DNA from: Tepidimonas ignava
GTDB lineage: Bacteria > Pseudomonadota > Gammaproteobacteria > Burkholderiales > Burkholderiaceae_C
DNA: 42,808 nt
Reading direction: 5' to 3'
Assembly (NCBI RefSeq): GCF_004342625.1
Contig: NZ_SMAH01000018.1
Span: 1 to 42,808 of the forward strand
Part shown: positions 1 through 16,080 of the stretch, piece after piece
Numbering within the stretch: the stretch's first letter is position 1
Layout: every line of letters starts with the position of its first letter
The notes under the pieces: generated by a model
Databases searched by the model: none
Seen by the model: the letters and a program-made list of their open reading frames with translations, nothing else
What the model was told of the DNA's origin: nothing
Program-made: the position numbers and the translations under genes

Positions 1-752
1 TGCGCCGCGGTGAGCGCCGCCACATCCTCCGTGTCCAGGCTCGCAACCTGATCCGTGCCCAGCGCCGCCACCTGCGCCGCCGTCAGCGCCTTGACCTGGT
101 CCGACGTCAGATTCTTCGTAAAGTCCGTGCCCGCACCTTGCAGCTGCGTCGTCGTCAGCGCCACGAGCTGCGTCGCCTTGAGCGCCTGCACTTGATCCGA
201 CGTCAGCGCCTGCAACTGTGCCGTGGTCAACGCCTTGATCTGCGCCGCGGTGAGCGCCGCCACCTGCGCCGTGCTCATCTCAGCCAAATCAGCCGCGTCG
301 ATTGCCGCCACCTGCGCCGCGGTGAGCGCCGCCACCTGCGCCGTACCCAACGCCTTGACTTGATCCGAGGTCAACGCAACGATCGAGTCGGTGCTCAGCG
401 CCTTGATTTGCTGGGCTGAGAGCTGCGCCACGTCCTCCGTGTCCCACTCGACGATCTCAGTTCCCAAGGCGTTGATCTGGGCCGCCGTCAGACCAGCCAC
501 CTGATTGCTGGTCAACGTCTTCATATCGTAGGGCCCCATGGCGTCTGCAAACGCCTTGGTATTGAATGCCGAGATTTGGGCGCTGCTCAGGACAACAAAA
601 TCCTGTGTCTCGATCGCTGCGATCTGCTCCGACGTAAGCGCCGCGATCTGGGTTTTGCTGAGTGCCGCAACGTCAGCGGTCCCTAGATTTTGGATTTGTG
701 TGGTGGTCAGCGCAGCGATTTGGGTAGGGGTCAGGCTGGAAATGATCGACAT
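1..752 (-). CDS. Octapeptide-repeat (LTxxQ[IV]xA) protein, partial (C-terminus outside window)
   Basis: An open frame runs leftward from the ATG at 752 to the window edge with no stop, giving about 250 residues. From residue 7 on, almost everything is an 8-residue repeat of the form L-T-x-x-Q-[IV]-x-A, roughly 27 copies. The phase is broken three times by short inserts, for example around the words AMGPYD, VEWDTED and GAGTDF. Some repeats carry G, D or E at position 2 or 3 (LGTxQV, LDTEDV). The N-terminus (MSIISSLTPTQIAALT) has no basic region and no hydrophobic core, so there is no Sec or Tat signal. An RBS-like AGAGAGG lies about 11 nt upstream of the ATG. A sigma-28-type promoter lies beyond an IS element inserted 43 bp upstream of the start. 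I know such repeats only from uncharacterised, often very large bacterial proteins, and I assign no function. The reading frame is certain; the role is unknown. Confidence 0.85.
   Translation of the reverse strand, partial: MSIISSLTPTQIAALTTTQIQNLGTADVAALSKTQIAALTSEQIAAIETQDFVVLSSAQISAFNTKAFADAMGPYDMKTLTSNQVAGLTAAQINALGTEIVEWDTEDVAQLSAQQIKALSTDSIVALTSDQVKALGTAQVAALTAAQVAAIDAADLAEMSTAQVAALTAAQIKALTTAQLQALTSDQVQALKATQLVALTTTQLQGAGTDFTKNLTSDQVKALTAAQVAALGTDQVASLDTEDVAALTAA
240..344. repeat. Exact 33-bp direct repeat inside the octapeptide-repeat gene
   Basis: Positions 240-272 and 312-344 are identical over 33 bp and lie 72 bp apart, which equals three 24-bp repeat units. The first 23 bases of the window (1-23) match the same unit. 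The identity goes beyond what the protein repeat requires, which suggests recent duplication or gene conversion within the array. Confidence 0.85.
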
Positions 753-786
753 GGCACACACCTCTCTGTAAGGTTGAGCTGACTTG

Positions 787-795
787 CGCTCGCGC
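787..795. repeat. Left target-site duplication of the IS256-type element
   Basis: CGCTCGCGC here is repeated exactly at 2145-2153, directly outside the two ends of the IS. IS256-family elements make 8-9 bp duplications, so this fits a simple, recent transposition. Confidence 0.8.
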
Positions 796-2144
796 GAGGG
801 TGTCAGGATTTTTGTGTGAGGGGCCTACCATGACGATGTTCAGGAGCCCCCATGCCACGCAAGAAGACCACCCCCGCCGCGAAGCCGGACGCCATTCTTC
901 CCGACGAGCTGCTTGAGAAGCTGATCCCCGGACCGATGGACGCCGCCGGCGTCGAGGCCGTGTTCCAGAAGCTGAAGAAGGCCGTGATCGAGCGCGCCTT
1001 GGGGGCTGAGCTGGGCGTGCACTTGGCCAGCCCCGAGGGCGGCTGCGGGAACCATCGCAACGGCCGCAGCGGCAAGACCGTGCTGACCGACGGCGGGCCG
1101 CTGCGGATCGAGGTGCCCCGCGACCGGGCCGGCAGCTTCGAACCGCAGCTGATCCCGAAGCATGAGCGCCGGTTTGCCGGCTTTGACGACCGGATCATCT
1201 CGATGTATGCCCGCGGCATGTCGGTGCGCGAGATTCAGGGCCATCTGGCCGAGATGTACGCCATCGAGGTGTCAGCGGAGTTCATCAGCGCCGTCACCGA
1301 CGCGGTGATGGCCGAGGTGGGGGCCTGGCAGGCCCGGCCGCTGGAGCCGATGTACCCGGTGGTGTTCTTCGATGCCCTGCGGGTGAAGATCCGCGAGGAC
1401 GGCGTGGTGCGCAACAAGGCGGTGTATCTGGCCTTGGGCGTGCTGCCGGACGGGACCCGCGACATTCTGGGGCTTTGGATCGAGAACACCGAAGGCGCGA
1501 AGTTCTGGATGAAGGTGTTCAACGATCTCAAGACCCGCGGGGTCACGGACCTGCTGATCGGCGTGGCCGACGGCCTGAAGGGCCTGCCGGAGGCACTGGA
1601 GGCGGTGTTTCCGGCCACGACCCTGCAGACCTGCATCGTGCACCTGATCCGCAACAGCCTCGACTATGCGAGCTGGAAGGACCGTAAGGCGCTGGCCGCG
1701 GCGATCAAGCCGATCTACACCGCACCGAGCGCGGAAGCCGCCGAGCGCGCGCTGGACGCGTTCGAGGCAGGGCCGTGGGGCCAGCGCTTCCCGACCGTGG
1801 TCGCGGCCTGGCGGCGGGCGTGGAGCCGGGTGATCCCGTTCTTCGCGTTCCCGCCCGAAGTGCGGCGGATCATCTACACCACCAACGCCATCGAGAGCGT
1901 GCATTCGCGGTTACGCAAGATCATCAAGAGCCGCGGGCACTTCCCAAGCGACGAGGCGGCCACCAAGCTGATCTGGCTGGCCTTGCGCAACATCACCGCG
2001 GACTGGAAGCGGGCGAGCAAGGAGTGGAAATCGGCGATGAACCAGTTCGCGATACTATACGGCGACCGCTTCACCCTCGCACCACGCTGAACGACACGAG
2101 GACAGATTCAGAAACCGCCCCACACACAAAAAACAGGACATCCC
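796..2144 (+). mobile_element. Complete IS256-family insertion sequence (about 1.35 kb)
   Basis: The element consists of one intact transposase gene between imperfect terminal inverted repeats. The left end (about 799-825) and the complement of the right end (about 2117-2142) agree at about 21 of 26 positions and share TTTTTGTGTG and GGGGC. A 9-bp direct repeat, CGCTCGCGC, flanks the element at 787-795 and 2145-2153. Length, single ORF and duplication size fit the family. The left end carries an outward-facing CTGACA (complement of 801-806) that resembles a -35 box, but no good -10 follows in the flank. The insertion separates the repeat gene from its apparent promoter. The exact outer boundary is uncertain by 1-2 bp. 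Confidence 0.9.
852..2090 (+). CDS. IS256-family DDE transposase
   Basis: This 412-residue mutator-type transposase catalyses cut or copy-out transposition of its own element. The catalytic triad can be read as D174 (in VFFDALRVKI), D240 (in GVADGLKG) and E348 (in TTNAIESVHSRLR). The C/H pair around 261-264 (LQTCIVHLIRN), typical of the family, lies between the second D and E. The length is normal for IS256 transposases (about 400 residues) and there is no frameshift, so the protein should be active. It is transcribed away from the neighbouring repeat gene and toward pilD. The start is the first ATG after the left inverted repeat. Confidence 0.95.
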   Translation: MPRKKTTPAAKPDAILPDELLEKLIPGPMDAAGVEAVFQKLKKAVIERALGAELGVHLASPEGGCGNHRNGRSGKTVLTDGGPLRIEVPRDRAGSFEPQLIPKHERRFAGFDDRIISMYARGMSVREIQGHLAEMYAIEVSAEFISAVTDAVMAEVGAWQARPLEPMYPVVFFDALRVKIREDGVVRNKAVYLALGVLPDGTRDILGLWIENTEGAKFWMKVFNDLKTRGVTDLLIGVADGLKGLPEALEAVFPATTLQTCIVHLIRNSLDYASWKDRKALAAAIKPIYTAPSAEAAERALDAFEAGPWGQRFPTVVAAWRRAWSRVIPFFAFPPEVRRIIYTTNAIESVHSRLRKIIKSRGHFPSDEAATKLIWLALRNITADWKRASKEWKSAMNQFAILYGDRFTLAPR

Positions 2145-2458
2145 CGCTCGCGCCGCACCGTTCGCAGAAAACCAAGAGCCCCTGCCCCTGCGACATCCCG
2201 TTGTGGCGCACTCACATGCGGTATCGGCCAAAGCCAGGAAAACTTGAGGGTGCAACCTGCACGAGCCGACACGACACACGTTGCTTTTAAAGGCTACCTC
2301 GGTATCGTTTTGCTGTGCATGCGTTCAGTGTCGCTTTGGGGGCGTGTTCGCTGGACAGGGGACCCGCGAGGGCAGCAGCCAGGGCTCGGTGACCCTAGGG
2401 CCACCACATCCACCGCTTCGCGCAGGCGAACGCCTGCCGTGCAAGTACACTGGCGCCC
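2145..2458. other. Intergenic region between IS and pilD, holding the displaced promoter
   Basis: No convincing gene lies here. The left side starts with the second copy of the 9-bp target duplication (2145-2153). Positions 2221-2247 hold a minus-strand sigma-28-type promoter (separate entry). Near the right end TACACT, about 12 nt before the pilD ATG, could be a -10 box for pilD, but no matching -35 is evident. The reading frames through this stretch are not conserved-looking. Confidence 0.6.
2221..2247 (-). promoter_or_regulatory. Sigma-28 (FliA) promoter for the octapeptide-repeat gene
   Basis: On the minus strand the sequence reads TCAAGTTT, 11 nt, GCCGATAC. The flagellar sigma-28 consensus in Pseudomonas and betaproteobacteria is close to TCAAGTTT-N11/12-GCCGATAA, so only the last base differs. 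Transcription would start near 2213 and run left. The only minus-strand gene in that direction is the octapeptide-repeat gene, now 1.35 kb further away because of the IS. Before the insertion the leader would have been roughly 100 nt. The match is seen; use by FliA is inferred. Confidence 0.75.
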
Positions 2459-3301
2459 ATGCTCAGCACCCTCGAATGGTCCGCTGCCGTGCTGCTTGGC
2501 CTGCTGGTGGGCAGCTTCCTCAACGTCGTCATCCACCGCCTGCCCACCATGCTGCAGCGGCGCTGGGAGGTCGAATGCGCCGCGCTGCGCGGCGAGGAGC
2601 CGCCCGCGCAGCCCCCCTACAACCTGCTGGTGCCGCGATCGCACTGCCCGGCGTGCCGGGCGTCGATCCCGTGGTGGCGCAACATTCCGCTCGTCAGTTT
2701 TGCGCTGCAGCGCGGGCGCTGCGCGGCGTGCGGGACGCGCATCGCGTGGCGCTACCCCGTGGTGGAGCTGGCCTGCGGGGCGCTGTTTGGGGCGGCGGCG
2801 TGGCGCTACGGGGTCAGCTACCCTGCGCTGGCCTGGGCCGTTTGGGGGGCGGCGTTGCTGGCGCTGGCCGCCATCGATTGGGACACAACGCTGCTGCCGG
2901 ACGACATCACGCTGCCGCTGACGTGGGCGGGGCTGATCGGGGCGGCGCTGGGCTGGACCGGGGTGCCGCTGGCCGATGCGCTGTGGGGTGCGGTCGCCGG
3001 TTACCTGAGCCTGTGGAGCGTGTACTGGGCGTTCAAGCTGCTCACCGGCAAGGAGGGCATGGGCTACGGTGATTTCAAGTTGCTGGCGGGGCTGGGGGCG
3101 TGGCTTGGTTGGCAGGCGCTGATCCCGCTGGTGTTGGTCGCGTCGCTGGTGGGCGCCGTCGTGGGCCTTGTGCTCAAGGCCACGGGCGGCCTGCGCGAAG
3201 GACGCTACGTGCCGTTTGGTCCGTTTTTGGCCTTGGGCGGGCTACTGGTGTGGGCCGCAGGCCCCAAGACGCTGCTGACGTGGCTGGGGCTGCCGGCATG
3301 A
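2459..3301 (+). CDS. pilD: Prepilin leader peptidase / N-methyltransferase
   Basis: PilD is an inner-membrane aspartic protease that cleaves and N-methylates type IV prepilins and type II secretion pseudopilins. The 280-residue protein shows all hallmarks. There is an N-terminal membrane segment with GSFLNVVIHRLP, then a four-cysteine zinc motif in the cytoplasmic loop (C63/C66 and C88/C91). The two catalytic aspartates are D140 (AAIDWD) and D205 in the GxGD motif (GMGYGDFKLL). Several further membrane helices follow. Its stop overlaps the coaE start (ATGA at 3298-3301). In related genomes pilB and pilC usually lie directly upstream; here that position is taken by the IS and the repeat gene. 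Confidence 0.95.
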   Translation: MLSTLEWSAAVLLGLLVGSFLNVVIHRLPTMLQRRWEVECAALRGEEPPAQPPYNLLVPRSHCPACRASIPWWRNIPLVSFALQRGRCAACGTRIAWRYPVVELACGALFGAAAWRYGVSYPALAWAVWGAALLALAAIDWDTTLLPDDITLPLTWAGLIGAALGWTGVPLADALWGAVAGYLSLWSVYWAFKLLTGKEGMGYGDFKLLAGLGAWLGWQALIPLVLVASLVGAVVGLVLKATGGLREGRYVPFGPFLALGGLLVWAAGPKTLLTWLGLPA

Positions 3302-14518: not shown

Positions 14519-14551
14519 AAAAAAGCTTGGCGGCCATCGAAACCGCCAAGC
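14519..14551 (-). terminator. Rho-independent terminator after livF
   Basis: On the minus strand GCTTGGCGG and CCGCCAAGC form a perfect 9-bp stem with a 9-nt loop, followed directly by six T. It lies 29 nt after the livF stop and before lysS, so it ends the liv operon. Confidence 0.9.
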
Positions 14552-14579
14552 CCGCGATTGTAGGACGCCCGCCGGGGGT

Positions 14580-15308
14580 TCAGGCGACGGACGCTTCGCC
14601 CAGGTACGCCGCGCGCACCTTGGGGTCGTCCAGCATGGCCTTGGCCTCGCCGGTCATGATGATCTCGCCCGAGTCCATCACGTAGCCGCGATCGGCCACT
14701 TGCAGCGCGCGGCGGGCGTTTTGCTCCACCAGCAGCACCGTCATGCCCTGCGCGTGCACGTCGCGCACCACCTCGAAGATCTTGTCCACCATGATCGGCG
14801 ACAGGCCCATCGACGGCTCGTCCAGCAGCAGCAGCTTGGGGCGGCTCATCAGCGCGCGGGCCATCGCCAGCATCTGCTGCTCGCCGCCGGACATCGTGCC
14901 GGCCAACTGGTCTTTGCGCTCGCGCAAGCGCGGAAACAGCTCGAACATGCGCTCGATGTCGCGCTGGATGTCGGCCTTGTCGGTGCGGGTGTAGGCGCCC
15001 ATCAGCAGGTTTTCGACGATGGTCATGCGCGCAAACACACCCCGGCCCTCCGGCACCATGGCCAGCCCACGCTTGACCAGGTCCCACGACCCCACGCCGC
15101 GGATGCTTTGACCGTCGTACACGATGTCGCCCGCTTCGGCCAGCAACATGCCGGTGATGGCCTTCATCGTCGTCGTTTTGCCCGCGCCGTTGGAGCCGAT
15201 CAGGGTCACCAGCTCGCCTTGACGCACCTCCAGGTCGATGCCCTTGACGGCCTTGATGCCGCCGTACGAGACCTTCAGGCCCGTGACTTTCAACAGGGTG
15301 TTGGCCAT
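14580..15308 (-). CDS. livF: Branched-chain amino acid ABC transporter ATPase LivF
   Basis: LivF is one of the two cytoplasmic ATPases of the high-affinity leucine/isoleucine/valine importer. The 242-residue protein has Walker A GSNGAGKTT near residue 38, signature MSGGEQQMLAMARAL near 138, and Walker B LLLLDEPSMGLSP near 158. LivF-type features are the short length and GRGVFARMTIVENL. The start at 15308 (MANTLLKV) lies 1 nt after the livG stop, so the genes are tightly coupled. It is the last gene of the operon. Confidence 0.95.
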   Translation of the reverse strand: MANTLLKVTGLKVSYGGIKAVKGIDLEVRQGELVTLIGSNGAGKTTTMKAITGMLLAEAGDIVYDGQSIRGVGSWDLVKRGLAMVPEGRGVFARMTIVENLLMGAYTRTDKADIQRDIERMFELFPRLRERKDQLAGTMSGGEQQMLAMARALMSRPKLLLLDEPSMGLSPIMVDKIFEVVRDVHAQGMTVLLVEQNARRALQVADRGYVMDSGEIIMTGEAKAMLDDPKVRAAYLGEASVA

Positions 15309-15309
15309 T

Positions 15310-16080
15310 TCAATGTCCTCCGGTGCCCAGGTAGGCCTCGATGACCTTGGGGTTCTTTTGCACCTCGGCCGGCGTGCCCTCGGCGAGCTGCTTGCCATAG
15401 TCCAGCACGGTGACGCGGTCGCACAGGCCCATCACGAGCTTGACATCGTGCTCGATCAGCAGGATGGTGCGGTTGTCGCGCCGAATGCGGTCGATCAGCT
15501 CGCGCAGCTGCACCTTCTCGGTGGCGTTCATGCCCGCAGCCGGCTCATCCAGCGCGATCAGCTTGGGGTCGGTAGCCAGCGCGCGCGCGATTTCAAGCCG
15601 GCGCTGGTCGCCATAGGACAGCGTGCGCGCCTTGTAGTCGGCGTACTTGGCGATGCCGACGTACTCCAGCAGCTCCATCGCGCGCTCGGCGATGGCACGC
15701 TCCTCGGCTTTGAAGCCGGGCGTGCGCAGGATGGCGCTGAGCAGCCCCCCGCGTGTGCGCACGTGGCGCCCCACCATGACGTTTTCCAGCACCGTCATTT
15801 CGGCAAACAGGCGAATGTTCTGGAACGTGCGCGCGATGCCCGCCTTGGCCACTTCGTGCACCGCGGTGGGCGTGTAGGGCTTGCCGTCAAGCTCGAAGCT
15901 GCCGCTGTCGGGCGTGTACAGGCCGGTCAGCACGTTGAAAAACGTCGTCTTGCCCGCACCGTTGGGGCCGATCAGGCCGTAGACCTGGCCGCGCTTGATT
16001 TCGATGCCCACGTCCGACAGCGCCTGCAGCCCGCCGAAGCGCTTGGACACCCCGCTGACTTTGAGAATGGTGTCTGTCAT
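15310..16080 (-). CDS. livG: Branched-chain amino acid ABC transporter ATPase LivG
   Basis: LivG is the second ATPase of the Liv importer. The 256-residue protein has Walker A GPNGAGKTTFFNVLTG near residue 40, the LivG-typical GIARTFQNIRLFAEMTVLENVMVG, signature LSYGDQRRLEIARALA, Walker B LIALDEPAAGMN and H-loop LLIEHDVKLVMG. The C-terminal BCA_ABC_TP_C tail (EGTPAEVQKNPKVIEAYLG) is present. It lies between livM and livF in one transcript. Confidence 0.95.
   Translation of the reverse strand: MTDTILKVSGVSKRFGGLQALSDVGIEIKRGQVYGLIGPNGAGKTTFFNVLTGLYTPDSGSFELDGKPYTPTAVHEVAKAGIARTFQNIRLFAEMTVLENVMVGRHVRTRGGLLSAILRTPGFKAEERAIAERAMELLEYVGIAKYADYKARTLSYGDQRRLEIARALATDPKLIALDEPAAGMNATEKVQLRELIDRIRRDNRTILLIEHDVKLVMGLCDRVTVLDYGKQLAEGTPAEVQKNPKVIEAYLGTGGH

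Follow-up and report, generated by a model that had tools for sequence, protein, structure and literature searches.

ALTTAQ octapeptide-repeat proteins as probable FliA-timed, type I-secreted alpha-solenoid surface proteins in the lineage of Tepidimonas ignava

The window analyzed here, a stretch of 42,808 nucleotides from Tepidimonas ignava (contig NZ_SMAH01000018.1), carries at its start the 5' part of a gene for a protein composed of LTxxQ[IV]xA octapeptides (the ALTTAQ repeat), together with a sigma-28 (FliA) type promoter facing it. An earlier note on this DNA had placed the gene in the flagellar regulon, and FliA-regulon membership in the window's lineage is now strongly supported by a sigma-28 site conserved ahead of homologous genes and by the co-occurrence of these genes with FliA. 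The reading that we consider probable is that the ALTTAQ protein is a giant surface protein folded as an alpha-solenoid, timed by FliA, secreted by a type I system and probably glycosylated. According to this proposal, FliA would transcribe the ALTTAQ gene late in flagellar assembly, alongside the late flagellar genes. In the long members, a GT41 enzyme would O-glycosylate Ser/Thr residues in the cytoplasm, a dedicated type I secretion system (T1SS) of the LssB type would export the chain via a C-terminal signal, and calcium outside the cell would fold an FrpC-like end domain, locking the chain there. The solenoid would then reach out from the cell as a tether and serve the motile stage as an adhesin or surface fibre. 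If this is true, a family of giant proteins present in 89 of 399 sampled genomes of the window's taxonomic family could be assigned a regulator together with a likely exporter, a probable modifying enzyme and a predicted fold, which would connect the expression of flagellar genes with the surface of environmental bacteria in a way that can be tested.

Sigma-28 site and co-occurrence with FliA

Both the repeat gene and the promoter site described earlier proved to be real. The open reading frame (ORF) matched the Pfam family PF20080 (ALTTAQ_rpt) in nine stretches with an E-value of 3.3e-55 (183.9 bits against a gathering cut-off of 26.4), and no obvious Sec or Tat signal was seen in the window protein by eye. 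The Pfam entry, whose repeat the window protein fits, gives no function, regulation or export route. The description of the protein as being of an undescribed type therefore does not hold for the repeat itself, although our literature text searches found no paper whose title or opening of the abstract concerned it. Homologues were gathered with an N-terminal profile built from seven proteins, which detected an ALTTAQ gene in 15 of 399 genomes of an order-wide sample (E <= 1e-12) and in 89 of 399 genomes, from 42 of 141 genera, of the family-wide sample (E <= 1e-19), the window genome being counted in both. A scan of named genomes yielded 79 loci, including those of Roseateles, Mitsuaria, Pelomonas, Paucibacter, Inhella and Ideonella, as well as the more distant carriers Duganella, Rhizobium and Sinorhizobium.

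The conservation of the promoter was assessed over 83 starts, comprising 90 distinct starts from the window's order minus seven that were considered internal on sequence grounds (scores of 13-17 ahead of them); the 83 starts are not independent, as several genera contribute close species. For each of them, the 350 bp upstream were scored against the E. coli sigma-28 consensus, TAAAGTTT-N11-GCCGATAA, with a threshold of 19 out of 26 that was chosen after viewing seven seed loci and left unchanged for the other 76 starts. A sigma-28-like site was found at this level ahead of 63 of the 83 ALTTAQ starts, and ahead of 59 of the 76 when the seed loci were set aside, so that the motif is conserved in the window's lineage before homologues from which the insertion sequence (IS) of the window is absent. 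By comparison, the reverse strand of the same regions reached 19 in 5 of 83 cases, mononucleotide shuffles in 1.3% of 1660, and the upstream regions of other genes in the loci in 6 of 322, one of these six being fliE and another an ALTTAQ gene for which a start further upstream had been taken. The score was also dependent on the spacer: 59 of the 83 regions reached 19 with 11 bases and 22 with 12 (the same region may count in both), against at most eight with 5-10 or 13-17 bases and 11 with 18.

The window site itself was somewhat less perfect than the match at all but one position that had been claimed, showing two mismatches over 16 positions to the E. coli consensus. A search allowing up to three mismatches gave one match, TCAAGTTT-N11-GCCGATAC (shuffled sequences averaged 0.09, with 9 of 100 reaching one), and the site was the sole exact match to TCAAGTT-N12-GCCGAWA in its own genome. 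Compared with the homologue sites, the last base alone is rare (C in 3 of 59), and the C at the second base of the window site is shared by 43 of the 59. The same genome carries TAAAGTTC...GCCGATA ahead of an FlgM-like gene, and two genus relatives carry TCAAGTT...CCCGATA about 120 bp ahead of a flagellin-like gene, the gene names in both cases being assigned by eye; another site in the window genome (G000 C17:3605) was matched to no gene. In a same-genus homologue that shares 79% identity over the first 250 residues, TAAAGTTC-N11-GCCGATAG sits 123 bp ahead of the ATG and scores 24 out of 26, the best of the set. For the window, subtracting the intervening IS from the present distance between the -35 element and the ATG gives a pre-insertion distance of 1495 - 1350 (IS) - 8 = 137 bp.

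FliA (TIGR02479, E <= 1e-30) was detected in 318 of the 399 family genomes, 314 of them above the curated cut-off, and the window genome was among the carriers (E 7.5e-82). It was present in 87 of the 89 ALTTAQ-positive genomes versus 231 of the 310 ALTTAQ-negative ones (Fisher p 4e-8, kinship ignored), and in this lineage the gene is hence not one found mainly in organisms without flagella, an outcome that the earlier note had named as telling against its own proposal. The two positive genomes lacking FliA, G460 and G643, are 90% and 79% complete, respectively. Among the 36 loci read upstream, the ALTTAQ gene lay divergently next to flhB in five (L140, L142, L144, L149 and L173) and next to fliE or fliF in two (L174 and L172), with Pfam support; the bulk of the remainder have non-flagellar neighbors. 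In these readings and in those of tandem loci, the genes came from a home-made ORF chooser and were named by eye unless supported by Pfam, NCBIfam or genome searches. Furthermore, at least five genomes (G622, G749, G541, G605 and G461) have fliA no more than about 9 kb from the ALTTAQ gene.

Predicted fold, domain architecture and export genes

The earlier note had proposed a fold prediction for the repeat array, and AlphaFold, run on the 250 residues of the window protein with 35 relatives, produced a model with a mean predicted local distance difference test (pLDDT) of 90.7 and a predicted template modelling score (pTM) of 0.84. This model comprises thirty helices of four to eight residues each, mostly one per octapeptide, and the window protein is accordingly predicted to form a short-helix alpha-solenoid. 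The sole solved sequence matched by the window protein (E <= 0.01) was HeliScrew4 (PDB 9zem; E 1.2e-13), with which it has a TPEQIAAL-type octapeptide repeat in common; HeliScrew4 is a chain of 120 aa whose name suggests a design, no paper on it was found, and it was not in the best 50 of 421 Foldseek rows. Within those best 50 rows, the top seven were mesothelin with query template modelling (TM) scores of 0.25-0.40, which we regard as unconvincing fold relatives, and the Pfam and PDB sequence matches to leucine-rich repeats (LRR), transcription activator-like effectors (TALE) and CAAP1 were taken as composition matches of a repeat.

Other family members are far longer, with ORFs of 6,123 (G021) and 6,705 (G749) residues in the family sample and of 9,542 in a genome of the order (G214). 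The C-terminal region of one long member aligned over 163 residues with the self-processing module of FrpC (PDB 6sjw and 6sjx; E 4.6e-37), and 74 distinct FrpC-like domains were found in the fetched ORFs by motif rather than by profile. Ahead of the conserved Pro, FrpC has the Asp that it uses for calcium-dependent Asp-Pro cleavage (PMC7078468), the cleavage site lying at the start of the module. Thr (52 domains) or Ser (22) occupies this position in all 74 domains and Asp in none, so that self-processing is not expected, and a calcium-dependent fold is more likely than a self-cutting function, judging from the sequences. P[LI][ILF], PPII or VLI closes 51 of the 66 sequences whose C-terminal end is known, often behind an acidic stretch, and tandem paralogues with different N-termini carry the same end, which points to a putative C-terminal signal. 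Another ending, of DGxxYxxxNxGxxQLLV type and outside this class, occurs in L122, L124, L234 and L310.

Proteins of thousands of residues with a calcium-folded C-terminal domain are typical of T1SS. A dedicated T1SS ATPase (>= 54% identity, E < 1e-240) was observed in 68 of the 89 ALTTAQ-positive genomes versus 4 of the 310 others, the query being taken from an ALTTAQ-positive genome (G479) and two candidates being scored per genome. The dedicated ATPases form a subgroup 54-100% identical to this query, apart from the remainder of the listed matches at 38-45%, and the transporter of G479 belongs to the LssB-type family (TIGR03375; 780.8 against a cut-off of 693.1). Linkage of the ALTTAQ and ATPase genes was examined for 63 of these 68 genomes; 41 had the two on the same contig, 22 on different contigs and 36 within 50 kb, these distances resting on ALTTAQ boundaries typed from matches and ORF lengths that are partly approximate. 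ABC, HlyD, TolC and GT41 genes were all found within about 30 kb downstream of the ALTTAQ gene in 11 of 20 genomes (partially also in G676 and G547). No such set was present in the 20 control segments, a lone ABC ATPase match being seen in four; the near-gene stretches extended up to about 32 kb, and the controls were single 20-kb segments, 15 of the 20 from the same genomes.

Of the 168 loci examined, many of them covering the upstream side alone, 26 showed a GT41 homologue, and one such gene lies immediately downstream of the ALTTAQ gene in the same-genus relative of the window. Annotated plasmids of Cereibacter sphaeroides and Pseudomonas asturiensis place an ALTTAQ homologue near type I secretion genes and a tetratricopeptide-repeat (TPR) protein, and these TPR proteins share 44-53% identity with the GT41 enzyme of that relative. 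In four Rhizobium/Duganella-type loci (L230, L235, L240 and L242), a GT41 gene immediately follows a giant ALTTAQ gene without a sigma-28 site.

By analogy, our best reading is that the ALTTAQ protein would act like FrhA, the flagellum-regulated hemagglutinin of Vibrio cholerae, with which it would have in common the nature of a large adhesin under flagellar control, built on a different repeat; FrhA is not known to have a GT41 partner. The gene frhA of V. cholerae O395 is described as a class 4 flagellar gene that is reduced without FlrA, FlrBC or FliA, whereas in the El Tor strain A1552 the loss of FlrA raised frhA instead (PMC6890996). RTX adhesins, to which FrhA belongs, are likewise reported to be exported by type I secretion (PMC6650083) and to have beta-sandwich repeats (PMC7493085), in contrast to the eight-residue mini-helices predicted for ALTTAQ.

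Weighing of the alternative explanations

A number of observations weigh against a FliA-timed, glycosylated and type I-secreted protein. Imperfect sigma-28 matches in the window's own genome and in five genus relatives were no commoner than those of a reversed-pattern control, and the window site taken alone is therefore weak evidence. Twenty of the 83 starts fell under the threshold, including that of the window, which scored 15 because the IS has moved the promoter away from the gene. None of 26 starts from Rhizobiales and from Duganella, Pseudoduganella and Rugamonas (these three genera contributing four Oxalobacteraceae-type records) reached 19, and neither did any of nine second genes of tandem pairs, so that, on this comparison of upstream regions, the ALTTAQ repeat does not in itself mark flagellar genes; the tie to FliA belongs to the window's family and is clearest in the Roseateles, Inhella and Ideonella type. 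Further starts at or above the threshold, with poor-looking motifs, were those of Pseudomonas ovata (20), Massilia (19) and a Rhodobacteraceae genome (19). Regarding export, 21 of the 89 positive genomes lack the dedicated ATPase, and the p-value of its co-occurrence, 1.5e-52, ignores kinship. The window genome and the same-genus relative showed only a 41-42% identical ATPase, no T1SS match was found in the flanks read, the complete protein of that relative has neither an FrpC-like domain nor a PLI end, and the window genome yielded no GT41 homologue. Finally, of the 11 T1SS/GT41 clusters, one had a site at 20 and another at 18 ahead of it, as measured from the start of the BLAST match and not from a mapped gene start, and none was seen ahead of the G003 GT41 gene; sigma-28 control of the cluster, for which no convincing site appeared, was consequently set aside.

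Some of these same observations could be turned into the view that the family comprises ordinary envelope proteins and that the sigma-28 motif is a chance match or directs the expression of something else, given the Rhizobiales homologues without a site and the non-flagellar genes adjoining most lead genes. This is very improbable, as the enrichment over homologues, the result on the held-out starts and the spacer specificity all oppose it; mere chance was rejected on the enrichment, the other-gene controls and the spacer specificity together. The suggestion of the earlier note that the protein may be flagellum-associated, leaving by the flagellar type III export gate as a signal-less, sigma-28-dependent product like flagellin, is compatible with the FliA-type promoter, the lack of an obvious signal peptide (by eye), the seven loci beside flhB or fliE/fliF, and the short type of the window's genus being without a dedicated T1SS ATPase. 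In the long members it is opposed by the dedicated T1SS, which co-occurs with them in 68 of the 89 genomes and often clusters with them, by the putative C-terminal signal to which the tandem paralogues point, and by the combination of giant size and a calcium-folded end domain that is generally typical of T1SS. Because of this T1SS linkage, we keep pure flagellar export as a mere rival and an unlikely one; for the window's short type it is a possible route.

It is doubtful, though worth considering, that the short form found in the window's genus represents a remnant, decayed or confined to the cytoplasm, that has kept its promoter and lost secretion. Its lack of the FrpC-like domain, the PLI end and the dedicated ATPase, the IS256 copy between promoter and gene in the window, and the detection of the gene in 2 of 11 genomes of the genus would all accord with decay, but the ORF is intact over 250 codons in the window and over 778 in the relative, where the best-scoring sigma-28 site and the adjoining GT41 gene are also found. 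Beyond the preferred reading of a FliA-timed, secreted solenoid, we tentatively suggest that these proteins could represent a new class of surface fibre, i.e., a glycosylated screw of eight-residue mini-helices, thousands of residues long, with its own LssB-type T1SS and FliA timing, whose short form would use another exporter, possibly the flagellum. Swimming cells would then bear an alpha-helical, sugar-coated tether in place of the usual beta-sandwich adhesin.

The window locus and additional observations

For the window's own gene, we would claim from its sequence a FliA-type promoter that an insertion sequence now keeps apart from the gene (Table 1), and expression of the gene may have been weakened or lost because the IS256 copy stands between them. 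The same-genus relative likewise has a transposase-like ORF (L034, 9211-9999; IS30-type by eye) about 60 bp upstream of its sigma-28 site, so that the promoter region seems to be a repeated target of insertion sequences.

Table 1. Coordinates of the features identified around the ALTTAQ repeat gene in the window.
Feature	Position	Strand	Basis
ALTTAQ octapeptide-repeat gene, 5' part, 250 codons	3..752	minus	ATG at 752; PF20080 match
Target duplication GCTCGCGC, left copy	788..795		8-bp repeat flanking IS256
IS256-family insertion sequence, between promoter and repeat gene	796..2145	plus	Inverted repeats 22/28; target duplication 8/8
IS256 transposase, 412 aa	852..2090	plus	Transposase_mut 1.2e-117; transpos_IS256 7.9e-120
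Target duplication GCTCGCGC, right copy	2146..2153		8-bp repeat flanking IS256
Sigma-28 (FliA) type promoter TCAAGTTT-N11-GCCGATAC	2221..2247	minus	Pattern search; conserved in homologues

The repeat ORF stays open up to the contig start, where the gene is cut, and its missing 3' part was absent from a search of the window's own genome, which returned one match only. In the same-genus relative, copies offset by 648 bases occur, which suggests that the cut reflects an assembly break at repeats. GT41 homologues were also found in four other genomes of the genus in which no ALTTAQ gene was detected. On the other side of the promoter, the divergent gene at 2459-3301 resembles a prepilin peptidase by eye, such that a pilus-type gene and a FliA-type promoter use one common intergenic region.

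Among the remaining homologues, that of Roseateles violae (L209 from 10001) has stop codons soon past its start, possibly denoting a pseudogene or a sequencing error. Family members in plasmid records are labelled as "heme utilization protein", "ICE nucleation protein" or hypothetical, and a weak repeat match with 28% identity was observed at 14545-15396 of the Spiroplasma plasmid record CP117533.1.

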